Made by a program: the position numbers and the translations under genes. Below are positions 1 to 64,000 of a DNA stretch of 64,000 nucleotides, one piece after another. Every line of letters begins with the position of its first letter. The stretch's first letter is position 1. Below the pieces are notes generated by a model, which ran no database searches, was not told the origin of the DNA, and was given only the letters and a program-made list of their open reading frames with translations. This stretch comes from Halobellus rarus (GTDB taxonomy: Archaea > Halobacteriota > Halobacteria > Halobacteriales > Haloferacaceae): positions 62,001-126,000 of the forward strand of contig NZ_JANHDI010000014.1 in the NCBI RefSeq assembly GCF_024494595.1, in the 5' to 3' direction.

Positions 1-735
1 ATTCGCGCCGTCGTAGTACAGCAGGCCGCCCGCGTCGTGGACGATGTCGGCGATCTCGGCGATGTCGCGCTCGAAGAGCCCGACGGTGTTGGGGTTCGTC
101 AGCATCAGCGCCGCCGTCTCCTCGGAGACGGCCGCTTCGAGGGCGTCGAGGTCGACGCGGCCGTCCTCGCCGGAGGGCAGCTCGACGACGTCGTAGCCGG
201 CCATCGCCGCGCTCGCGAAGTTCGTTCCGTGCGCCGACGCGGGCACGATCACCTCCGATCGGGGATCGCCGCGGGCCTCGTGACACGCCTTCGCGATCAT
301 AATCCCGGTGAACTCACCGGCCGCGCCCGCGGGCGGCTGCAGCGTCACCGCGTCCATCCCGCCGATCCGCGCGAGGTAGTCCTGGAGGCCGTAGAGGAGT
401 TCGAGCGTCCCCTGGACGCTCTCCTCGGAGCGGTCGGGGTGGACGCTCCCGTTCGGGTCGGCCGCGACGTCCTCGGTGAACGAGGGGTTGTACTTCATCG
501 TGCACGACCCGAGCGGGTACGGCCCGGTCTCGACGCTCCAGTTCATCTGCGAGAGCCGGGTGTAGTGCCTCGACAGCTCCGGCTCGGAGAGCCCGGGCAG
601 TTCGAGACTGTCTCGGGTCAGATCGTCGGGCAGCGGCGACTTCCCGTCGACCTCGACGGTCGTCGTGTCCTTCTCGGAGAGCAGCGATTCGTACCGGTCG
701 TCGTCGCCGTAGCGTGCCTGATCGTGGTTCATCAT
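1..735 (-). CDS. gcvPB: glycine dehydrogenase (decarboxylating) subunit 2, partial
   Basis: This is the second half of the split P-protein, the PLP enzyme that decarboxylates glycine and passes the aminomethyl group to the H-protein. The first 245 residues are visible, including GSCTMKYNP near residue 77. The left edge cuts the gene inside a DGAN segment, so the PLP-lysine region is outside the window. The ATG overlaps the upstream gcvPA stop as ATGA, so the two subunits are probably translationally coupled. It is the last gene of the gcvT-gcvH-gcvPA-gcvPB operon. Confidence 0.95.
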
Positions 736-2078
736 AGTGCCTCCTCGAACGCCGCGACGAGCGCGTCCGCCGCCTCGGCGTTCACGTCGGTGACACAGAC
801 CTGCAGCCGGTGGTCGCCGACGACGTGGACCGCGAAGCCGTCCGCTTCGAGGTCCCGCGCGATCGCCGGGGCCGGCTGGTCGGTCCGGACGAGGAACTCC
901 CGGAAGTGGTGTCGGTCGTGGACCGGCGCCTTGAGTCCCGGGAGTTCGTTCAACCGCGTCGCGAGCGACGCCGCCTCGCGAACGCACTGGCTCGCGAGGT
1001 CGACGAGGCCGTCCGGACCGAGCCAGGCGAGGTGCATCGCGGTCCGCAGCGCCACCCACGCCTGGTTCGTGCAGATGTTCGAGGTGGCGCGCTCCTTGCG
1101 GATGTGCTGCTCTCTGGTCTGCAGCGTGAGCGTGTACGCGCGCTTGCCGCCGGCGTCCTCGCCGGCCCCGACGAGCCGTCCGGGGACCTGTCTGAGGAAG
1201 TCCTCCCGCGTCGCAAAGAGCCCTAGCCCCATCCCGTAGGCCGTCGGCAGCCCCAGCGCGTCGGCCTCGCCGACGACGACGTCGGCACCGACGCTCGCCG
1301 GCTCTTCGAGCAGGCCGAGCGCGACGGTGTCGGTTCCGAGACAGAACAGCGCGCCCGCCTCGTCGGCGACGTCGCCGATGTCGGAGAGGTTGGCTTCGAT
1401 CGTCCCGTGAACCGTCGGGTTCTCGGCGTAGATCATCGCCGCGTCCCCGTCTGCGAGTTCCGAAAGCGCGTCGACGTCGACGGTCCCGTCGGCCATCGGA
1501 TACGTCTCGACCGCCAGATCGGTGCCGTCGACGTAGTTTTCGAGCACCGCGCGCTTGTTCTCGTGGAGGATTTCGGGAATCCACACGACGGATCCGGACA
1601 CCTTCCGGACCCGATCGGCGAGCCTGGCCGCCTCACCCAGCGCCGTCGCGGCGTCGTACATCGAGCAGTTCGCGACCGGGAGCCCGGTCAGCTCGACGAC
1701 GAGCGACTGGTACTCGAAGAGCGCCTGCAGGAACCCCTGGGCGATCTCCGGCTGGTACTGCGTGTACGAGGTCAGGAACTCGGCTCGCTGAGAGAGGTCG
1801 TCGACGACCGACGGGACGTAGTGTGAGTGGTGATCGCGTCCGAGGAACTCGGTCAGGTCGTCGTTCTTCGCGAGCGCCGACGTCAGCTCCGCGCGGAGTT
1901 CGCGCTCGCTCCGGGGCTCGATTCCGAGGTCGCCGTCGAACCGAACTTCGGATGGAACGTCGAAGAGATCCGCCTCGCTGTCGACGCCGACCGCCGCGAG
2001 CATCTCGGCGGTCTGCTCGGGCGTGTGCGGCGTGTACGGGCTGCCGGCGACCCGCTCGTGACGTCCACCCTCGCTCAT
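732..2078 (-). CDS. gcvPA: glycine dehydrogenase (decarboxylating) subunit 1
   Basis: This is the first subunit of the two-subunit glycine decarboxylase (P-protein). The 448-residue length and the conserved [20 protein letters not shown] and [10 protein letters not shown] segments match the archaeal/Gram-positive GcvPA family. I chose the ATG at 2078 because a near-perfect Shine-Dalgarno sequence (GGAGGTG) ends six bases upstream. The GTG at 2087 lies inside that site. A 70-base gap separates it from gcvH, and it overlaps gcvPB by 4 bases. It works with gcvPB, gcvH and gcvT in glycine breakdown and one-carbon supply. Confidence 0.95.
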
Positions 2079-2084
2079 CCGTCG

Positions 2085-2091
2085 CACCTCC
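2085..2091 (-). promoter_or_regulatory. Shine-Dalgarno site of gcvPA
   Basis: GGAGGTG on the minus strand lies six bases before the ATG at 2078 and is complementary to the 16S rRNA 3' end. It decides the gcvPA start. It also fits an internal operon gene, since first genes of haloarchaeal operons are mostly leaderless. Confidence 0.7.
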
Positions 2092-2148
2092 CGCTGACCG
2101 AGAGGGCAGTTCGCGTCCGCGTCGAACGCACGTTCGGGTGCATCGTGA

Positions 2149-2529
2149 TCACTCGGTCTGCTCGCGGTAGTCGTCCGCGGAGAGCAACTCGTCGAACTCG
2201 GCGTCGTCGCCGACCTCGACTTCGAGCATCCAGCCGTCGCCGTAGGGTTCCTCGTTCACCAGTTCGGGGCGGTCGAACAGGTCCTCGTTGACGGCGGTCA
2301 CGGTCCCCGAGACAGGCGCGTAGAGGTCCGAAACGGCCTTGATCGACTCGACGACGCCGAACTCTTCGCCCTGCGAGATCTCGTCGCCGACAGCCGGCAG
2401 TTCGACGAAGACGACGTCGCCCAGTTCGTCTTGAGCGAAGTCGGTGATGCCGACCGTCGCGGTCTCTCCGTCGGTCGTTGCGTACTCGTGCGATTCCTGG
2501 TACTTGCGGTCTGTGGGTACTTCGAACAT
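2149..2529 (-). CDS. gcvH: glycine cleavage system H protein
   Basis: This 126-residue lipoyl carrier shuttles the aminomethyl intermediate between P- and T-proteins. The lipoyl site is the lysine in [10 protein letters not shown] (about K64), in the usual place for the family. The ATG overlaps the gcvT stop by one base (TAATG), which indicates coupled translation. The acidic C-terminus is typical of haloarchaeal proteins. Confidence 0.97.
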
Positions 2530-3620
2530 TAGTTGTCCTCGATGAATGGTGTGGTAACGATTTCGGCGCGCTTCTCCTGTCCGCGAACGACGACCGAGAG
2601 TTCCGTCCCGGGCTCAGAGAGCGACGTCGGGACGTAGCCGAGCGCGATCGGCTCCCCCAGCGTGGGGCTCATCGTCCCGCTCGTCACGTGGCCGACGACG
2701 TCGCCGTCGTCGACGATCTCGTGGCCGTGCCGGGCGATCCCGCGTTCCCGCAGGAGCAGGCCGACGAACGTCTCCTCGACTCCCTCCTCGGCGACGGTGG
2801 CAAGCGCGTCGCGACCGACGAAGTCGGTATCGAGCGCGACGGTCCAGCCGATCCCCGCCTCGTAGGGGGTGCGCGGCTCCGAGTCGGGATCGAAGTCCTG
2901 CCCCGAGAGGAGAAAGCCCATCTCCGTCCGGAGCGTATCGCGGGAGCCGAGCCCGCAGGGGGTGCAGTCCGCCGCGAAGTCGGACCAGACGGGCTCGACC
3001 TCGTCGGTCGGACAGATGATCTCGAACCCGTCCTCGCCGGTGTAGCCCGTCCGCGAGACGAGCGATCCAACGCCGGCGACGTCGGCCCTAATCACGTCAC
3101 CCCACGATAGCGGGGCGACGTCGGCGTCCGTCGCGTGGTCGACCGCCTCGGCTGCGTCCGGCCCTTGCACCGCCACCATCGCCCACGCGTCGGTCTCGTT
3201 TCGGACCTCGCTGTCGAGGTCCCACTCGTCCCTGTGGTCGACCCACCGGCGGTACGCCGCCTCGTCGTGGCCGGCGTTCGGCACGAAGAGGTACCGGTCT
3301 TCCGCCTCGGGCAACCGGTAGACGATCGTGTCGTCGACGATGACCCCCGATTCGTCGGTGATCGCCGAGTACTGCGACTCCCCGGGCGAGAGCGCCTCGA
3401 CGTCGTTCGACGTGAGCCGCTGCATCAGGAGCGTCGCGTCCGGGCCGCTCACGACTATTTCGCCCATATGTGAGACGTCGAAGATCCCGACCGAGTCGCG
3501 CACGGCCTCGTGCTCGGCTCGGATCGATTCGAACTCGACGGGCATATCCCACCCGCCGAACCCGGTGAACGTCGCGTCTGTGGCGTAGACGTCGTACAGC
3601 GGCGGCTTCCGAAGGGCCAT
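2529..3620 (-). CDS. gcvT: glycine cleavage system aminomethyltransferase (T protein)
   Basis: The T-protein transfers the methylene group from H-protein to tetrahydrofolate and releases ammonia. The 363 residues from [10 protein letters not shown] carry the family features [20 protein letters not shown] and [12 protein letters not shown]. The frame stays open to 3773, but the upstream codons do not resemble the family, so the ATG at 3620 is preferred. It is the first gene of the gcv operon. I could not fix its TATA box with confidence. Confidence 0.95.
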
Positions 3621-55531: not shown

Positions 55532-56563
55532 TCAGATATCGTCCGGAATGTGTTTCTGGCGGCGGCGCGCGCGCTCCCGATTCCCCGCCTTGTCGTAGTG
55601 CTGTTCCAGCACGTCCTCGGACGCGTCCCCGCGATCACTGATCACGGGGCGCGGCGTCCCAGCAGTCCGGTGCGCTGTCACGCTCCCGGTCCGAATCTGG
55701 TGCGGCGAACGGGACGACGGGCACTTACTCGCCTCACCCCCACCACTCGCCTCGCACTCGTCGATGTCGCGATCGTGCGGACACCCGTCGTTGATCTCGC
55801 ACGGGCGCGTGACATCGTACATCCAGGATTGGATCGTCGAGACGACCGGACGGCCGTGGGTCGTCGTGATTAACGGTGATCGACCTTCGTCGTCGACGAT
55901 CCCGATGCGCGGGCCGTCGATGTAGTCTTGGACCACCTCGGCGACCCAGTCCTTCAGAATCACGTCACGTTCACCGCTAACCCCGTTTTTCAGCGGCGTC
56001 TCCGGCGGTCGGTGTCTAAACGATAACGCTCCGTCTTCCGGATCCCAATCCTCCAGATCGAGCGCTCGGATTCCCCCGCGCCGCGCTGGAACGCGCCACG
56101 CTAACAGAAGCGAGACGTGCTTCCGACTGGCGTACTCGTACCGACGGAGGTAATCAAGAATCGCTTTCATCCGTTCGGAGGAGATCTTCGTGTCGTCGCT
56201 CTGCTCGTCCTTCGACGGCGACGGGACACGGATCCGATCCGGAAGCGTCTCCGGAACGCCTCGAAGGTCGGCGACGCGGAGCAGGAACTGTTTCAGCGTC
56301 GAGACCTGCCCCTGCATCGTCATAATGTTACACGGATCACGATCGCCGTTGTCCTCGCGCTTCCAGACGCGCCACTGGTGGACTGTCCGAACGTCGACAT
56401 CGTTCATATTCGAGATTCCCTGCTCTTCGAGCCAGTCGGTGAACGTCCGGAGGCGGTACTCGTGATCGCGAAGCGTCGCCGCGGCCAGCTCGCCGCGACG
56501 CTCGTCCAGGTAGATGTCGAGAGCGGCCTCCGGCGTGATCGGCTCCAGGTCCTCAACACTCAC
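55532..56563 (-). CDS. tyrosine recombinase/integrase
   Basis: This 343-residue phage-type integrase has an N-terminal SAM-like core-binding domain (TPEAALDIYLDERRGELAAATLRDHEYRLRTFTDWLEEQG). Its catalytic domain has the first Arg in AWRVPARRGGIRALDLEDW, H-x-x-R in SPHQIRTGSVT (about H288, R291) and the nucleophile in VLEQHYDKAG (about Y323). A Cys/His cluster before the H-x-x-R box, as in other haloarchaeal integrases, suggests zinc. Its 5' end overlaps the DUF6884-like gene by 11 bases. Start GTG 56563 follows a perfect Shine-Dalgarno. Confidence 0.93.
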   Translation of the reverse strand: MSVEDLEPITPEAALDIYLDERRGELAAATLRDHEYRLRTFTDWLEEQGISNMNDVDVRTVHQWRVWKREDNGDRDPCNIMTMQGQVSTLKQFLLRVADLRGVPETLPDRIRVPSPSKDEQSDDTKISSERMKAILDYLRRYEYASRKHVSLLLAWRVPARRGGIRALDLEDWDPEDGALSFRHRPPETPLKNGVSGERDVILKDWVAEVVQDYIDGPRIGIVDDEGRSPLITTTHGRPVVSTIQSWMYDVTRPCEINDGCPHDRDIDECEASGGGEASKCPSSRSPHQIRTGSVTAHRTAGTPRPVISDRGDASEDVLEQHYDKAGNRERARRRQKHIPDDI

Positions 56564-57509
56564 GCGGATCACCTCCGATCTCCGCGTACTCGACAGCGTG
56601 ACCCGTGCGCTTCCGGTGGAGAACCTCGTTCACGGCCGCGAGCACGCGATCGTCCTCGACGACGTCCTCGTGGTCGCACCCGTGACAGACGACGTGATAG
56701 ACGACGTCTCCGGGACTATCTTGTCCGCCGTCAGTCACCAGCCGTTGCTGTTCAGACTCTCCTCCACCTGAAGTTGGACCCGACCAGTGATTCACTTGAT
56801 TTATCACAGTCCGTTTCTGGGTGAATGCGGGTATTGATGAGCTGTCAGCGCGACTATTCAGTCGGGAGTGTGCCTCTGGCAAAACGACTGCGGCGGGATA
56901 TGCCTCCCACACATTCCTTTGATAAAACGAACACTCCGTGTTACCTACACACTGAGCGGTAGCTCCTCCAGGTCTCGAACTTTCGTCTTCTGATACGTTC
57001 GATCCGCCGTCGGTGACGAGCCGACTCTGTTCCGCGCTCTCGGTCTTAACGCGCTCGGAGAGCCATCCCATCTGCTCGCCGATTCCACCGAGATCGTTCG
57101 TCTGAAGCGGGAACGTGACGGTCGGATCGATACCCGAAGAGAACGACTCTCGCTCTCGAAGCGGGTCGAGGTAGCTCCGCCCCGCGAGGACGATGATCTC
57201 CTCGATCTCGACGCCCTTCCCGACCTCGTTCGCGATCCAGTCGATCAGCGACATCCCGACCGTATGCGCGAGCGCGTCAAGGCGGTCCTCGTCGAGGTCG
57301 TCGATGCTCGTCTCGTAGGGATCGAGTTCCCGATCGGGAGTGACGAGCGCGTGCTCCGCCGAGAGGATCAACCACTCGTCGCCGATCGTCTCGGCGTACT
57401 CGCGCTTCTTCGCGAAGTACGTCGACGTGTACAGGTCCGCGGCTCGCGTCGGTTCGTCGCGCTTGGCTGCACCGCACCCGACGATCACGAGCGTCTTCGA
57501 GTGGGTCAC
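56553..57509 (-). CDS. DUF6884-like protein fused to a small Cys/His module
   Basis: This 318-residue protein has three parts. Residues 1-155 (KTLVIVGCGAAKRDEPTRAADLYTSTYFAKKREYAE, WLILSAEHALVTPDRELDPYETS, IIVLAGRSYLDPL) resemble the DUF6884 family found in phages. Residues 170-255 look degenerate, with lower GC. Residues 265-318 (VVYHVVCHGCDHEDVV...HAVEYAEIGG) resemble stand-alone haloarchaeal Cys/His modules. RLVTDGG occurs at both joints (163-169, 256-262). GTG 57509 overlaps the upstream stop as GTGA. Confidence 0.75.
   Translation of the reverse strand: MTHSKTLVIVGCGAAKRDEPTRAADLYTSTYFAKKREYAETIGDEWLILSAEHALVTPDRELDPYETSIDDLDEDRLDALAHTVGMSLIDWIANEVGKGVEIEEIIVLAGRSYLDPLRERESFSSGIDPTVTFPLQTNDLGGIGEQMGWLSERVKTESAEQSRLVTDGGSNVSEDESSRPGGATAQCVGNTECSFYQRNVWEAYPAAVVLPEAHSRLNSRADSSSIPAFTQKRTVINQVNHWSGPTSGGGESEQQRLVTDGGQDSPGDVVYHVVCHGCDHEDVVEDDRVLAAVNEVLHRKRTGHAVEYAEIGGDPREC
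56568..56576 (-). promoter_or_regulatory. perfect Shine-Dalgarno of the integrase gene
   Basis: GGAGGTGAT on the minus strand lies four bases before GTG 56563. It is the full complement of the 16S rRNA tail and rejects GTG 56572, which lies within it. Confidence 0.75.
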
Positions 57510-57916
57510 TGCGACCCCTCCGAGACACGATCGACCGCGTCGAGGTCGACCCGTTCGTCCAGATCCAGCGCCGCGTCTTCGACCCACCCGGCGAGACTCC
57601 GCCCGGATCGAGGCGGCGTCGGTTCCGCCGGCGGGTGATCGTGCAGCTCCGGGAGTCGATGGTCGAACGTCCGGATCAACTCCAGCAGCGCCGCGTTCTG
57701 GATCCGCTGCTGCTCTGCGATCTCCTCGAGGGCGTCGGCCTGGCGCTCCAGGGCGTTCAGTTCCTCGAAGGAGCCGCCGTCGGTAATGAGCCGTTTCTCT
57801 TGACCTGTGGCTTCTTGTGGACCGGGGTCGGTGTTTGATCCGATGTCTACTGAAGAAGACGCAGAACTACACAGTACTCGGAAAGTACGAGAGGACGGCT
57901 CTTCAGTGGTGGTCAC
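57506..57916 (-). CDS. coiled-coil element protein with unclear, possibly lost, start
   Basis: The supported part begins around 57795 (KRLITDGGSFEELNALERQADALEEIAEQQRIQNAALLELIRTFDHRL) and runs as a helical, probably coiled-coil protein to 57506. No ATG, GTG or TTG lies in frame until GTG 57916, which is inside the opposite-strand AbrB-like gene. Either it starts there (136 residues, antisense overlap of 74 bases) or its 5' end was destroyed when the AbrB-like gene was inserted. Confidence 0.5.
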   Translation of the reverse strand: MTTTEEPSSRTFRVLCSSASSSVDIGSNTDPGPQEATGQEKRLITDGGSFEELNALERQADALEEIAEQQRIQNAALLELIRTFDHRLPELHDHPPAEPTPPRSGRSLAGWVEDAALDLDERVDLDAVDRVSEGSQ

Positions 57917-58052
57917 GGTTCCGCCCGAAGCTGTCGAGAGATCCGGTATCGAGGTCGGTGAGCAGGTGATGATCGGAAGCGTCGAGGACGGACCCGTGAC
58001 GCTGGTTCCTTGGAGCGAGGACGACATTCGCTCGATAGTCGGCTCCGAGTAG
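57843..58052 (+). CDS. AbrB/SpoVT-type swapped-hairpin DNA-binding protein
   Basis: This 69-residue protein has an AbrB-like core, LHSTRKVREDGSSVVVTVPPEAVERSGIEVGEQVMI. Such proteins regulate transcription or act as antitoxins. It is the only plus-strand gene inside the minus-strand operon. Its stop (58050-58052) touches the stop of the neighbouring gene with no gap, and its 5' end covers the place where the next operon gene should start. No toxin partner is adjacent. Confidence 0.75.
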   Translation: MSTEEDAELHSTRKVREDGSSVVVTVPPEAVERSGIEVGEQVMIGSVEDGPVTLVPWSEDDIRSIVGSE

Positions 58053-58502
58053 TCACGCGTCATCCACAGGCACCTCCGACACGAACTGTTCGCGGAGCGC
58101 CTCGCTCGTCGCTTCGACCGCCGACTCAACCCGCTCGCGCAGATCGTTTTGGACCTCATCCGGTAACTCGCTCGGATCGGTACCACCGTCGGTCTCGACA
58201 CCGTCGCCGCGGTCGGCATCGTCGTTCCCTCCGTATACCACTTCAGCGTCTTCCGTATGCATCTCGAAGTTTTTCTTGATGGTCTCCGGGCCGTCCGATT
58301 CTTTGACGAATCGATGTGGCTCTCCAGTGATCTCTTCGGCGACACTCACGAGTTTTCGCATCGCGTCTTCGACGATCTCGACTTGGTGGGAGTCGGGACC
58401 GTGCCCCAGCATCGAAGCCTGATAGAGATGGGGCTCGTCGACGACATCCTCCTCGACGAGCAGGAGAGTGTGTTCTTCGCCGTTCTCTTCCCATTCACTC
58501 AT
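58053..58502 (-). CDS. element operon protein, hypothetical
   Basis: This 149-residue acidic protein has an N-terminal part that may form a small alpha/beta fold (EHTLLLVEEDVVDEPHLYQASMLGHGPDSHQVEIVEDAMRKLVSVAEEIT). A degenerate GVETDGG lies near residue 104 before a helical C-terminus. It overlaps the upstream gene by eight bases. No family was recognised. Confidence 0.6.
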   Translation of the reverse strand: MSEWEENGEEHTLLLVEEDVVDEPHLYQASMLGHGPDSHQVEIVEDAMRKLVSVAEEITGEPHRFVKESDGPETIKKNFEMHTEDAEVVYGGNDDADRGDGVETDGGTDPSELPDEVQNDLRERVESAVEATSEALREQFVSEVPVDDA

Positions 58503-58833
58503 CGCTGATCACCTCGACGTCGAGGAGTTCTCCGAGACGGGGCTGTCGATTCGTCGACCGTCCGCCGGTCGTCTTGATGACGATTCCCTCGTGGTGCTTC
58601 GCTTCGATATTCCAGACCTGAACGAAGACGTCGCCTTTCAGATCGCTCGTGAAACCGTACAGGGCGACGGCGTCGTGGTCGACGACGCGCGCCTCGATGC
58701 TCTGGTCGTTCGAGCTTCGCGTCGAATCGTAGGATAACCGAACCTGCGCGCCGGATTCGACCGCTTCGAGCCGCCCGAGGAGATCACGACGCTCCTCGAC
58801 GTCGAGCCGCGTGAACGTCTCGGAACTACTCAT
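58495..58833 (-). CDS. element operon protein, hypothetical
   Basis: This 112-residue protein has a helical start (FTRLDVEERRDLLGRLEAVESGAQVRLSYDS) followed by beta-strand-rich sequence (IEARVVDHDAVALYGFTSDLKGDVFVQVWNIEAKHHEGIVIKT). No family was recognised. It overlaps the genes on both sides (ATGA upstream, eight bases downstream), so it belongs to one coupled operon. Confidence 0.6.
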   Translation of the reverse strand: MSSSETFTRLDVEERRDLLGRLEAVESGAQVRLSYDSTRSSNDQSIEARVVDHDAVALYGFTSDLKGDVFVQVWNIEAKHHEGIVIKTTGGRSTNRQPRLGELLDVEVISDE

Positions 58834-59663
58834 CGCGCATCACCGTCCTCGATGGGCGCGAAGTTCTGCTGGGTCATCCCCGGCACCGGCAGATGGCCGT
58901 TCCGCTCGTAGCCGGCCTCCGTCAGCGCCTCGTCGATCTCCTCGACGTCCTGGTCGTCGGGTTCGCTCTCGATCACGAAGTGACCCGCGCGGTCGTCGTA
59001 CTGCGCGATGCTCTCGACGTCGGCGTCGGGGATCGACGCGACGGCCTCGAACAGATCCTCGTCGACGTGCTCGGGAACGCCGCCGTCGCTGACGAGCTGC
59101 CCGTGGCCGCAGTTCGGACAGTAGACGCCCGTTCCCGGATCGATCTCCTCCGGAAGCTCCGACCCGCACTCGGCGCAGGTGGGTCGTCCGCCGTCTGTTT
59201 CGATGCGACCGCAGAGATGCGAGAAACACGTATCGCAGACGTTTCCACGGCGGCGCTCATCGCGGATTCGAGACGAACGGACCGGAAGCCCCGATCCTGG
59301 AAGCAGCGCGCCACAGAGCACGCTGCTCCGTTCTCCGGAGTCCGTGAACGCGGCCGTCGAAGCGTCAGTCTCGAAGTGGAGAACGCCGTTCGAGTCGTAT
59401 CGGAGCCGCTCGATCTCGTTGGTATCGATTCGACACCGAGTTTCGGTACGCTCCGGCGCGCCGCCGTCGGTCAGTATTCGCCCACTTTCGTCCATTCGTT
59501 CACGGGCGCGGAATTCGCCCGCGGGCAGGAAGCCCGTCTCGTGGCCGCAGGGTTCCAGCGTACGCCGGCCGGGAGCGCGCGCCGAGATACCCGTGACGAC
59601 CGCACCGCAGATCGGACACCGCGGACCGGTGACGGTCCACAGCTCCGGAGAACGCGCCGCCAT
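58830..59663 (-). CDS. modular zinc-ribbon protein with three TDGG joints
   Basis: This 277-residue protein is built from Cys modules: RCPICG...EPCGHE (residues 16-41), CGAL and CDTCFSHLCG (117-152), CAECGSEL...YCPNCGHG (163-188, a complete zinc ribbon). A C-terminal acidic alpha/beta region (about 197-255) and the tail MTQQNFAPIEDGD follow. RILTDGG (62-68), RIETDGG (153-159) and QLVSDGG (189-195) sit between modules. It may be a serial fusion of small haloarchaeal viral proteins. The function is unknown. Confidence 0.65.
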   Translation of the reverse strand: MAARSPELWTVTGPRCPICGAVVTGISARAPGRRTLEPCGHETGFLPAGEFRARERMDESGRILTDGGAPERTETRCRIDTNEIERLRYDSNGVLHFETDASTAAFTDSGERSSVLCGALLPGSGLPVRSSRIRDERRRGNVCDTCFSHLCGRIETDGGRPTCAECGSELPEEIDPGTGVYCPNCGHGQLVSDGGVPEHVDEDLFEAVASIPDADVESIAQYDDRAGHFVIESEPDDQDVEEIDEALTEAGYERNGHLPVPGMTQQNFAPIEDGDAR

Positions 59664-59851
59664 CAGGCCTCACCTCTCGGAACGTACCGCGCGTCGATCT
59701 CCCCGAGTGGAGTCAGTCCGAAGTCCTCGGGCAGGTGCGAGGCGATGTGCGTGCTCGTGCGGACGCGGAGCGTGGAGAGCTTTCGCCCGCAGGCGGGACA
59801 CCGGACCAGCCGGACGCGATTGCTCCGGCCGGCGGGATGCGCGATCGCCAT
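59663..59851 (-). CDS. small Cys-pair protein
   Basis: This 62-residue basic protein has one C-x-x-C (VRCPACGRKLSTL) and ends LGEIDARYVPRGEA. It may bind zinc with a partner or be half of a zinc site. Its ATG overlaps the PadR-type stop as ATGA, and its stop overlaps the next ATG by one base. Confidence 0.6.
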   Translation of the reverse strand: MAIAHPAGRSNRVRLVRCPACGRKLSTLRVRTSTHIASHLPEDFGLTPLGEIDARYVPRGEA

Positions 59852-60210
59852 CACGCGCCCTCCTCGTCGTCGCCGGCGAGCCACGCGCGGCGGGCCTCCA
59901 GGACGGCCTCGCCGTGCTCGGTCAGCGCGTACTCGTTCGTGCGCTTGTCGCGTGCTTCCTTCTCGACCAGCCCGTCGTCGACGAGGCGGTTGAGGTTCGG
60001 GTAGACGCGCCCGTGGTTCTGCGGTTCGCGGTAGTACGCCTCGATCTCGTTCTTCAACGCGACGCCCTTGCTGGGTCCGCGGCGGGCGATCGCCCAAAGC
60101 ATATCGCGGGCGAACGCGGGGAGATCGGCGAAGATGTCGCCGTGGTTGTGGTATCGATTCGACTGGGTCTGTGGGCAATCGTTTTGGCCCTGGTTCGCTG
60201 ATTCGCTCAT
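59851..60210 (-). CDS. PadR family transcriptional regulator
   Basis: This 119-residue winged-helix regulator is the first gene of the element's minus-strand operon. The core DLPAFARDMLWAIARRGPSKGVALKNEIEAYYREPQNHGRVYPNLNRLVDDGLVEKEARDKRTNEYALTEHG is typical of haloarchaeal PadR-like proteins, with the Y-P-N-L-N/L-V recognition region. ATG 60210 follows a structured leader of about 75 bases. It probably controls the operon together with the divergent repressor-like gene. Confidence 0.85.
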   Translation of the reverse strand: MSESANQGQNDCPQTQSNRYHNHGDIFADLPAFARDMLWAIARRGPSKGVALKNEIEAYYREPQNHGRVYPNLNRLVDDGLVEKEARDKRTNEYALTEHGEAVLEARRAWLAGDDEEGA

Positions 60211-60385: not shown

Positions 60386-60414
60386 ACCGGTAAATACACG
60401 TGATCGGTGGTAAT

Positions 60415-60705
60415 ATGACGGTTCTCGATAAGGCAATGGATGTAATGCGAAAGTCTGCGGATTGGATGGTCCCTTCGGATGACCGGATTCTCGAACTCCT
60501 CAGGGAGCACGGCAATCTGACACCGCAGGCTGTCGACGATCTCGGTGGACCATCGGCCGGACACGCTCAAGATCGACTCCCAACGCTCACGAAGTTCGGA
60601 CTGACAGAGCGGATTTCGCGTGGTCTCTATCGAATCTCCGAGAAGGGAATCGCCTACCTCGACGAGGACCTTGATGCTTCCGAGCTTGAGCCCGTCGACG
60701 ACTGA
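60415..60705 (+). CDS. phiH1-repressor-like winged-helix regulator
   Basis: This 96-residue protein resembles the repressor family of Halobacterium virus phiH1: KSADWMVPSDDRILELLREHGNLTPQAVDDLG, then HAQDRLPTLTKFGLTERISRGLYRISEKGIAYLDEDLDASELE. The wHTH spans nearly the whole protein. ATG 60415 has GGTGG upstream. GTG 60400 is an in-frame leaderless alternative. Divergent from the PadR gene, it probably keeps the element silent, and autoregulation is suggested by the overlapping operator. Confidence 0.85.
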   Translation: MTVLDKAMDVMRKSADWMVPSDDRILELLREHGNLTPQAVDDLGGPSAGHAQDRLPTLTKFGLTERISRGLYRISEKGIAYLDEDLDASELEPVDD

Positions 60706-60921
60706 TCCGTTGCTTTCGGGCTGAATTGCGCTTGTTTCTGTGTTGACCACAGACGGTCAGATGCGTGTGTGGGTAATAGGCGGCGTGGGGCCGTGATCGA
60801 ATAATTGGAAACAGTGAAAATTCGCCTTTTATTCATCCGACATAAACTGTGGGATTACAATGGATTGCTGCCAATGATTTACGTAGATGGATTTTTGTAT
60901 TGTATCACAACATAATAGGGT

Positions 60922-61569
60922 GTGACTAGAATAGACCACTCTCCTCTCTTACCGATAAGTTTTGTATTTGCTACATTGATTCTTTTCGTTGCCTATAATA
61001 AATTGTCTGAAGGCCCAACTCCATTAAAAGAACAAGCATTAAATATATTAGTTAAATCAGGTCGAATTCCGAAACTTTATTCAACGGTCAGTGTAGGGGT
61101 TTTTTCCTTATTGGCAGTACTAATAGTGGGCCAGATCCTGCAATCGACAGCCATAGTATTAGTCACGCTATTTTATGCAAGTGTACTATTCTTCGATAAT
61201 ATATTCGATAAAAACACACCAATGCCAAGGATTGAAAAACCCGATAGATACTACGATAGCGAACATACTAACGAAAAAGATACACAGGGTTTCAAATTTG
61301 AGTTCCAAGTGCGGAATATTGGAGGAAGAAAATTACAAAATCCGACAGTTCAGTATAAATTGTATGACATATATGATGACTCAAATACACCTTGGAAAAA
61401 CCTATCAACGGATAATTCTACAATTGAACCCGGTATGACTAACTCATATAGCATTGATGGCTGGCCAGTCACAGAAGGATCTTCTGTGGATTATGTTGTA
61501 GTTATTCGAGTGAAGCCTTATCTCGGGTTCTCTCTTTCACGGGATAGGAAATCGTTCACTATACCTTAA
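60922..61569 (+). CDS. AT-rich three-helix membrane protein
   Basis: This 215-residue protein has three hydrophobic segments near residues 10-25, 53-70 and 74-92, then a soluble beta-rich domain (FKFEFQVRNIGGRKLQNPTVQYKLYDIYDD...VDYVVVIRVKPYLGFSLS) that resembles CARDB/Ig-like folds. It starts with GTG. Codon use is AT-rich and unlike the chromosome. It lies 54 bases before the ATPase gene and may be its partner. No family was recognised. Confidence 0.65.
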   Translation: MTRIDHSPLLPISFVFATLILFVAYNKLSEGPTPLKEQALNILVKSGRIPKLYSTVSVGVFSLLAVLIVGQILQSTAIVLVTLFYASVLFFDNIFDKNTPMPRIEKPDRYYDSEHTNEKDTQGFKFEFQVRNIGGRKLQNPTVQYKLYDIYDDSNTPWKNLSTDNSTIEPGMTNSYSIDGWPVTEGSSVDYVVVIRVKPYLGFSLSRDRKSFTIP

Positions 61570-61591
61570 GCTCGTGAATCCGGAGGCCAGC

Positions 61592-61603
61592 TTTTATTTA
61601 ATA
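61592..61603 (+). promoter_or_regulatory. TATA box of the large ATPase gene
   Basis: TTTTATTTAATA lies 21-32 bases before ATG 61624, so the ATPase gene has its own leaderless promoter. Confidence 0.6.
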
Positions 61604-61623
61604 TCGCCGAGAGTTCTTAATCA

Positions 61624-64000
61624 ATGAAGCAGCGTCAGGCAACTCCAACTAAGAACTGGAAGGATATCACTGATGACCACAAAAAAACACGAGAAGTAGT
61701 AGAACAGAAGATATCAACTGTGGCTGAGGGGGGCGAAGCAGATCCCCTCGCTGTGGTCGGTCCTTATCGGTGTGGGAAGACACAGTTGTTATACCACTCA
61801 TTTGACTTTTGTTGGGAAAATGGACTTCCAGCGTTGTATACAGACGCAAAATCAATTTTTAAAGAGTTCGAAAAATCTGAATCAGAAGATATCGCTAAAT
61901 GGCTGTCTCAACGTACCACGACTCAAGTTCAGGCACTTATTGAGGGGAAAGACGCGGATTGGTTGCCAAACTGGGAGCGAGAAGAAGATCGACTTGCTTG
62001 GTTGAAGGATGTAGTAAATGAGGGTTCGTTTGATGAGAATTATGCAGTGTTACTGGTTGATGAGGTTGAGCAAGCATATACAGACTTACGATCGAAAGAC
62101 CTGGTTGATGATGAAAACCCATTACGCATAATTTTGGACGACACGGAGGGGGTCTATCAGCTATGGGCCTTCGGGTTGGTATCAGCCTATGAGTTTTTGG
62201 GCGAAGCAGATTATGCGCGGTTTAGGGAAGTTCGTATCCCTCTTCTAGATGTTGAAGATGTTCAAAGAAACCTTCTGAACAATGGTAAAAACGCTGACCT
62301 TGCCAATGGAATTTGGTGGCTTGCTAGGGGAAGAGTTGGTTGGAGTAATAAGCTGATAGAAGAGGCCCCATCCACTGACGAAGATATCTCAGCGTGGGTC
62401 CAGTGGGTTAGTAGCTTGGATTTTGAAGGCACGAGTCCTTTGAATAAAGACGTTTGGACGAATAGTGATGTTGATCGTGGTCAGTGGGATAATGCTCGGA
62501 AAGCAATTCTATTCCTAAAAAATGAATACCCTGATTGGGAAATACAGTCTCCTTCAGGAGACTCGATTTCGGTTGATAATATGAAGGGCCTCAGTCTGGA
62601 TATTATTCTAAATATTTCTTCCGTCGATGCTCCTCCCGCTAGTAAAGAGATGGTAGAGCGAAATTTGAATCGGCTATGTGACAGTCTTTCGACTAAGTCT
62701 AGTTGGAAAGAGAGTACACATTACTTGCCTGCAAATATGTTAACAGAAAATAAATCTGTTGGAGGGTTTCTAAAGCTTCTACAAGATCTCATTACCTCTT
62801 TTGAACCACGTGGTTCGATAAGGGCAAAAGCTAACGAGATAGTCGAAGAAGTGTCTACAAACGAATTCCGGGTTTCTTGGTCGGATCGGTTCTACAATAA
62901 CATAGACAGTGAACACGGGGCTTGGTCTATTCGACCTTCTATTGTTTCCGAAGCATACCCATCAGTAGCTGTAAATCCGAACCAGCTCACAAAAACGGCT
63001 ACCAACGAACTAAGGGATAATATTCACACAGGGATCGAGATCGACCCAAATATTGACTCGGGCCATATTGGATATGAAGTGTATTTTTGTCCAAACATCG
63101 ATAGTGTGAATAGCGTAATTGAAAAGGCTGCCAAACCACGAGATATTCAAAAAACATATTGTATTATAATCCCAGATCTTGATTTGGCGGATGTTGATAA
63201 TTCTGAGAAGTTAACGCAACTTATTGAGGTTCAAAGAATTCAAGTCATTACCGAAACTGCATCACGGCTATGGGACTTTTTAATTCAATTGCGGGTTTAC
63301 TTGGAAGATAACTTTGGAATCGAACAGCCAGTAACCCAAAATAAGATCAATAATGCGTTAGATTCTGAGCCGGATCGAGAGAACAGAAATACGATTCAAA
63401 CTCTCTTTGATCAAGTGTATAATATTTCTGAATCCGCCGTAAATGACTGCTTAGATGATTTCAGGCAACACTACTCCCGACGTGATACGAACACCCCAGT
63501 ATGGGCGGAGTCTCATTTAGACGAGGAAGCTCCACCCGGAATGTACGGAGGAGGTAGTCTGCCACGGAGAGGACTTTCTTTCGCATTAGTATGTTCCGTT
63601 GCGGACATTGACACAAATCACAGCTACATCGATTTGCGTAAGGAACTTTTGAACGGAATAGATGAAGGTTATATCGAAGCCTCAGGTCAAGAATTTGGCT
63701 TTCAACAGTTTCTCACTTACGTCTTCTCAGAAACGGGTTACTCAGACCCTGTTAGATCGACAAGAAAATTATATGTCTCATCTCAGGAAGGGAGAGATCC
63801 GAGTATAGATCATCTACAGGAGTATTTACTTAGTCTAAGCGAAATGAGTGAAGAATTAGACATACTCACAGATATGGGTGCGGAAAGTGATGCGATAGAT
63901 ATCATAAACGGCACCAGATTACGAGCACATCTAGGTCCTGAGTTCCTTTGGGGGACATATCTAGATGGTTCATCTACGCAAAATTCAGAAAAAGTTATTG
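61624..64000 (+). CDS. large P-loop (AAA+-like) ATPase, partial, AT-rich
   Basis: The frame is open from ATG 61624 to the right edge (792 codons seen, no stop). It has Walker A AVVGPYRCGKTQLL (GPYRCGKT, residues 46-53), Walker B YAVLLVDEVEQAY (D146, E147), and an arginine-bearing segment RFREVRIPLLDVEDVQRNLL. GIWWLARGRVGWSNKLI may be the sensor 2/lid region. The remaining 550 residues show no known domain by eye. The codon use is foreign. A defence or conflict ATPase is plausible but unproven. Confidence 0.75.
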   Translation, partial: MKQRQATPTKNWKDITDDHKKTREVVEQKISTVAEGGEADPLAVVGPYRCGKTQLLYHSFDFCWENGLPALYTDAKSIFKEFEKSESEDIAKWLSQRTTTQVQALIEGKDADWLPNWEREEDRLAWLKDVVNEGSFDENYAVLLVDEVEQAYTDLRSKDLVDDENPLRIILDDTEGVYQLWAFGLVSAYEFLGEADYARFREVRIPLLDVEDVQRNLLNNGKNADLANGIWWLARGRVGWSNKLIEEAPSTDEDISAWVQWVSSLDFEGTSPLNKDVWTNSDVDRGQWDNARKAILFLKNEYPDWEIQSPSGDSISVDNMKGLSLDIILNISSVDAPPASKEMVERNLNRLCDSLSTKSSWKESTHYLPANMLTENKSVGGFLKLLQDLITSFEPRGSIRAKANEIVEEVSTNEFRVSWSDRFYNNIDSEHGAWSIRPSIVSEAYPSVAVNPNQLTKTATNELRDNIHTGIEIDPNIDSGHIGYEVYFCPNIDSVNSVIEKAAKPRDIQKTYCIIIPDLDLADVDNSEKLTQLIEVQRIQVITETASRLWDFLIQLRVYLEDNFGIEQPVTQNKINNALDSEPDRENRNTIQTLFDQVYNISESAVNDCLDDFRQHYSRRDTNTPVWAESHLDEEAPPGMYGGGSLPRRGLSFALVCSVADIDTNHSYIDLRKELLNGIDEGYIEASGQEFGFQQFLTYVFSETGYSDPVRSTRKLYVSSQEGRDPSIDHLQEYLLSLSEMSEELDILTDMGAESDAIDIINGTRLRAHLGPEFLWGTYLDGSSTQNSEKVI

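Follow-up and report, generated by a model that had tools for sequence, protein, structure and literature searches.

In the window, the 64,000-nt stretch of Halobellus rarus DNA analysed here, a cluster of small genes encodes repeated copies of a peptide, [RE]LVTDGG, which is a genuine motif and marks the seams of module exchange; the exchange itself is documented by comparison of related elements, and the molecular route suggested for it below is inferred. We put at about 0.6 the probability that [RE]LVTDGG is a joint peptide between exchangeable modules of a class of haloarchaeal integrative elements. The cluster and its neighbours comprise the following genes:

55532-56572, minus strand: SNJ2-type tyrosine integrase with 50% identity to that of SNJ2
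56553-57509, minus strand: protein of the form DUF6884 (YaaA-like, putative nucleic-acid binding), RLVTDGG, a segment, RLVTDGG, Cys/His module
57506-57841, minus strand: coiled-coil module (SFEELNALERQ...) after RLITDGG, its N-terminal module apparently lost here
58053-58502, minus strand: small acidic protein with a GVETDGG copy
58830-59495, minus strand: zinc-ribbon protein with three motif copies
59851-60210, minus strand: PadR-like winged-helix protein, free of the motif in the window

Translation of both strands recovered seven copies of the motif, all in frame on the minus strand within 2.8 kb:

59460-59480, minus strand: RILTDGG, in the zinc-ribbon protein, five residues past its likely start (MDESG-RILTDGG)
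59187-59207, minus strand: RIETDGG, degenerate, within the zinc-ribbon protein with a Cys-rich stretch on either side
59079-59099, minus strand: QLVSDGG, separating the zinc ribbon (CPNCGHG) from an acidic C-terminal domain
58182-58202, minus strand: GVETDGG, degenerate, in the linker of the 58053-58502 protein
57773-57793, minus strand: RLITDGG, left joint of an exchanged cassette; DNA identity with a second element, L188, begins inside it
57003-57023, minus strand: RLVTDGG, right joint of the exchanged cassette, immediately past the DUF6884 domain
56724-56744, minus strand: RLVTDGG, second copy, ahead of the Cys/His module, which L188 and L270 encode as a gene of its own

The first-pass annotation had placed these copies in four consecutive genes. 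There are indeed four carriers (three copies in the zinc-ribbon protein, one each in the small acidic protein and the coiled-coil module, two in the DUF6884 protein), but they are not strictly consecutive, as a copy-free gene at 58495-58833 and an opposite-strand gene at 57843-58052 intervene. The ES-x-EQ flanks common to two of the copies, also pointed out there, are real. The opposite-strand gene is MazE/AbrB-like, and its start abuts the coiled-coil module. The coiled-coil gene lacks an evident start codon, so the arrival of the MazE/AbrB-like gene seems to have cost it its N-terminal module.

The motif cluster is part of a haloarchaeal integrative element whose integrase belongs to the SNJ2 family, with 50% identity to the SNJ2 enzyme over 342 aa (E 1.8e-106). 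A search for tRNAs within the window returned none. Right beside the element, at 60400-64000, the G+C content falls from about 0.66 to 0.41-0.52, and this region is probably another island. In the accessory protein gp3 of betapleolipovirus SNJ2 a PadR module directly follows RLVADGG, and in phiH1_295 it follows QLVTDGG; a PadR module after the motif is found in phiH, SNJ2, L010, L122 and L218, unlike the window copy. Helper proteins increase the activity of the SNJ2 integrase (PMC8371274), and DUF6884 has a YaaA-like fold that is probably DNA-binding (PMC11701544). Given this helper role, the PadR fusions and the DUF6884 fold, most of the modules joined by the motif likely bind nucleic acid.

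That the motif lies at module borders, as proposed at first pass, was borne out by comparison of related elements, between which DNA homology stops inside the motif codons. One such comparison is with L188, a second element of the window genome located on another contig:

57003-57784, minus strand: 782-bp cassette comprising the coiled-coil module and DUF6884 genes, 92.2% identical to L188 1022-1803

Similarity begins inside RLITDGG and ends at the last base of RLVTDGG, and the outer sequences are unrelated on both sides. The next genes are 82% (Cys/His) and 65% (integrase) identical between window and L188, whereas L188 and L270, from Halobellus captivus, are about 85% identical throughout, indicating that the cassette moved by itself. 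The simplest reading of these alignments is that it passed from one element to another, each of the two crossovers falling within motif codons. Since the cassette contains the final part of one gene and the first part of the following one, such an exchange would replace the back half of one protein together with the front half of another.

Four DUF6884 genes (window, L188, L270 and L271) are 73-92% identical through the last base of the motif, and their tails beyond it are mutually unrelated:

Window: decayed segment followed by the Cys/His module
L188: CPECGQ zinc module
L270 (Halobellus captivus): CAGCGCIHP zinc module
L271 (Halobaculum gomorrense): methyltransferase-like region, named from sequence motifs rather than a family search

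The pattern thus matches the kind of border known from VENN: the sequences are homologous as far as a conserved peptide, and the modules past it are unrelated. More distant DUF6884 proteins often just end, in ATDGG and a few residues, and many stand-alone ones (L169-L180, L272, L273) terminate in (A/V)TDGG followed by a few residues. At L271 3515-6668, DUF6884 is fused via LITDGG to the DNA methyltransferase-like region, RLVTDGG precedes a second methyltransferase-like region, and a C5-cytosine methyltransferase-like gene adjoins; this locus is possibly a modification or defence module.

The tail of the window gene has a history that can be partly traced through the segment between its two motif copies:

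56726-56966, minus strand: segment between the two RLVTDGG copies, ending in the second copy, 73% identical to L189 7580-7823

The L189 sequence, in the same genome downstream of truB, is non-coding with in-frame stops and matches the 240 bp before the second RLVTDGG. The segment is not a widespread repeat, occurring in two places among 60 family genomes, both of them in the window genome. In view of this non-coding relative, and of the Cys/His module being a stand-alone gene in L188 and L270, the window DUF6884 gene (predicted protein of 317 aa) looks like a young fusion, made via a decayed upstream leader that already carried the peptide.

Proviruses L277 and L278, which are 93-95% identical across 7.4 kb, offer the cleanest natural experiment of module exchange. 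In one gene, two TDGG copies enclose a segment that is unrelated in the two proviruses, with the N-terminal part and the C-terminal module common to both and identity returning at GTCACCGACGGTGGA. L115 and L118 have the N part in common (94.6% over 1187 bp) up to the motif, past which they differ, while the pairs L010/L122, L016/L102 and L109/L121 have only the C part in common. Two loci of one genome, L008 and L091, differ by insertion or deletion of a module between two motif copies, and the segment between two copies in L245 and L246 is a separate gene in L193. Over all motif proteins, from comparison loci many of which were fetched because they bear the motif, 85 of 491 interior ends of protein homology fell at a motif, compared with 30.7 ± 11.5 at random positions (0 of 2000 shuffles as high). 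After collapse to homology families, the excess was small (9 of 23 at the motif, 6.8 expected), because a few large families dominate.

Structure prediction is consistent with a flexible joint. In the AlphaFold2 model of the window DUF6884 protein, the domain is confident to about residue 165 and pLDDT stays below 50 from residue 167 on, that is, from the motif (about residues 162-168). In that of L277, RVATDGG coincides exactly with a low-confidence hinge, residues 38-44, on either side of which a module is better predicted, although this model is poor overall (alignment two sequences deep, mean pLDDT 42.5). Low confidence at the motif is suggestive of disorder, not proof of it.

Homology that ends at the joint, cassettes swapped at both ends, conservation at the level of the peptide and low predicted order at the joint are the observations on which the following model is built. 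Small, mostly nucleic-acid-binding modules (zinc ribbons, PadR winged helix, DUF6884, coiled coil, Cys/His, methyltransferase) would be joined in series by acidic, disordered linkers in which [RE]LVTDGG is the recurring core. Between related elements, single modules would be swapped, as would cassettes made of two half-genes; each crossover would fall within the codons of one of two joints, leaving the reading frame and the folded domains unbroken. The crossovers may use the 8-17 bp of identity that follow from a common peptide and common codons, by ordinary or viral homologous recombination or by strand annealing, and the peptide may persist because joints are tolerated there and kept as hinges.

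Against the joint reading it can be held that a mere flexible linker would not need a fixed [RE]LV part, and this same excess over linker needs would be expected if the peptide were a short linear motif read by a partner (a protease, proteasome adaptor, chaperone or DNA-transaction factor), with recombination merely following. Conservation of the peptide while synonymous sites are free also suits such a motif, as do its occurrence near N-termini (SNJ2 gp3, phiH1_295) and the related ATDGG tails that end DUF6884 proteins. Copies are, however, N-terminal, internal or C-terminal in unrelated proteins, with no common partner or position rule, and we regard a linear motif of this kind as rather unlikely. 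Somewhat less probable again is a broader idea that combines it with the joint, a "joint code" in which one peptide, both read by a common partner and serving as an in-frame crossover zone, would free small DNA-binding modules for exchange among viruses, plasmids and integrative elements.

The cluster might alternatively be an effect of composition bias and local duplication acting on an ordinary acidic haloarchaeal linker, and the frequency of the motif bears on this. In the predicted genes of window 1-55000 (16,025 aa) [TSA]DGG does not occur, and the relaxed motif has four matches in 1,413 aa here, compared with 1-2 per 100,000 aa in random chromosomal sequence of related haloarchaeal genomes. 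DNA patterns detected no RLVTDGG elsewhere in the window genome; the one further match is an RFITDGG frame on contig C16 in a non-coding-looking frame. DNA patterns for RLVTDGG and RFVTDGG gave 74 sites in 293 genomes of the order (0.25 per genome), and the scrambled, composition-matched RVLTDGG gave 27 sites in 146 genomes (0.18 per genome). Genome-wide counts were therefore rejected as proof, a raw count carrying little weight when the scrambled peptide is almost as common, and a reversed-pattern control overstates the enrichment. The two sets differ in where they lie: RVLTDGG sites are mostly within folded methyltransferases, acidic N-terminal stretches or wrong frames, unlike RLVTDGG sites, which are repeatedly between modules of small proteins.

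The near-equal frequency of the scramble, flanks rich in D, E and P, and named viruses that lack an excess of the full motif all fit the ordinary linker. This explanation is already weakened by the rarity or absence of permuted motifs in the same motif-bearing proteins and by homology that stops precisely at the motif, two-ended swaps included; we consider it improbable and prefer the joint between exchangeable modules.

The motif is typical of one class of elements and not of all haloarchaeal mobile DNA, as its density in named haloviruses and plasmids is at background (2.0 relaxed motifs per 100,000 aa, chromosome 1.8; these sequences were picked by similarity to neighbouring modules and not by motif). 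Near DUF6884 genes the density reached 20.8 per 100,000 aa in elements fetched as DUF6884 neighbours, a set that includes relatives of the window gene and is thus not independent. In viral contigs scanned by DNA pattern, matches were mostly unrelated or out of frame, only L078 and L080 being clearly of haloarchaeal type, and phage and plasmid collections queried with the zinc-ribbon protein, the Cys/His tail and the L277 region gave almost no matches. In mobile-element contigs chosen by motif, 21% of [TSA]DGG copies were in the last 25 residues, compared with 11% expected.

The conserved thing is the peptide rather than its DNA. The first-pass annotation had seen in the copies a CCGCCGTCGGT core shared beyond what the peptide needs, and had considered the motif to be either a processing or sorting peptide, a role that is possible, or the scar of a recombination site that shuffles small genes into fusions. 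Relative to genome codon usage, the motif does appear biased to ACC GAC GGC, but as a sign of a DNA site this bias was discarded, as it vanishes when the comparison is made with identical residues that have identical neighbours (T before D, G in DGG); the core reflects ordinary context-dependent codon choice with no extra shared bases, and across all copies synonymous positions match the codon-context expectation. Nor was homogenisation detected among copies in one element, synonymous codon sharing being 0.519 within and 0.515 between elements. A Shine-Dalgarno origin of the DGG codons is not favoured, GGA being rare in the first Gly codon. The absence of residual codon bias and the equal likeness of copies within and between elements identify the peptide as the conserved unit, which speaks against a site-specific recombination site; of the earlier proposal, the joints of module shuffling are supported and the dedicated DNA site is not.

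A core of a site for the neighbouring tyrosine integrase, acting in the manner of a shufflon, would fit the direct copies flanking cassettes and sharing up to about 17 bp, the adjoining integrase gene (55532-56572, as regards the motif a candidate only) and an SNJ2 att core that can be only 13 bp (PMC8371274), yet the borders lack a common conserved DNA site, variation at synonymous positions is what codon context leads one to expect, copies resemble each other no more within an element than elsewhere, exchanged copies differ in the core and no inverted arrangement was seen, making this very improbable.

Conserved joints between exchangeable modules are known; new, as far as could be searched, are the peptide, the module set and the setting. 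Phase variation of the haloarchaeal myovirus phiCh1 was reportedly described by Klein et al. in 2012. Like shufflons, phiCh1 phase variation is recombinase-driven and works by inversion at conserved DNA sites; coding segments of a mobile element are swapped in frame there as here, but for the window motif neither DNA-level site conservation nor inversion was found. In mosaic tailed phages, short shared sequences lie at module borders where recombinants occur, mostly between genes, whereas the motif joints are intragenic and encode a fixed peptide. The VENN motif of CdiA effectors is a short conserved peptide separating a constant part from a variable toxin part, with unrelated C-terminal modules swapped beyond it (PMC5371414), and the present motif is likewise a short peptide bordering exchanged, unrelated modules. 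CdiA, however, is one large secreted family with one border, while [RE]LVTDGG occurs again and again, in many cases with several copies in one protein, linking small intracellular modules that are unrelated and lying before or behind a given module. The carriers are zinc ribbons, PadR, DUF6884, coiled coil and similar proteins rather than secreted polymorphic toxins with immunity genes; by analogy, the motif works like a VENN-type joint without being a member of that family. SNJ2-type elements share with the window an integrase and, in gp3, the joint ahead of PadR, and a description of the peptide or of module shuffling was not found in the literature on them. Neither the motif string nor the phenomenon was found in a literature search that covered only a minor part of the subscription papers.

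As a sequence tag for module-exchange seams in archaeal mobile elements, the motif makes shuffling countable, datable and testable. It goes some way towards accounting for the many one-of-a-kind combinations of small modules among the proteins of these haloarchaeal elements, and it provides natural fusion joints functional in proteins from cells living at high salt.

The peptide also occurs in other contexts. A conserved group of small chromosomal proteins, present in several genomes of one family (L012, L015, L017, L018 and L020), carries ..PVDEP-RLVTDGG-x-P-xPGVP and is, as far as seen, unrelated to the mobile modules. At L219 (G178:C60) 55-3204, a 1049-residue protein bears four [RE]LVTDGG copies, and the modules between them are duplicated.
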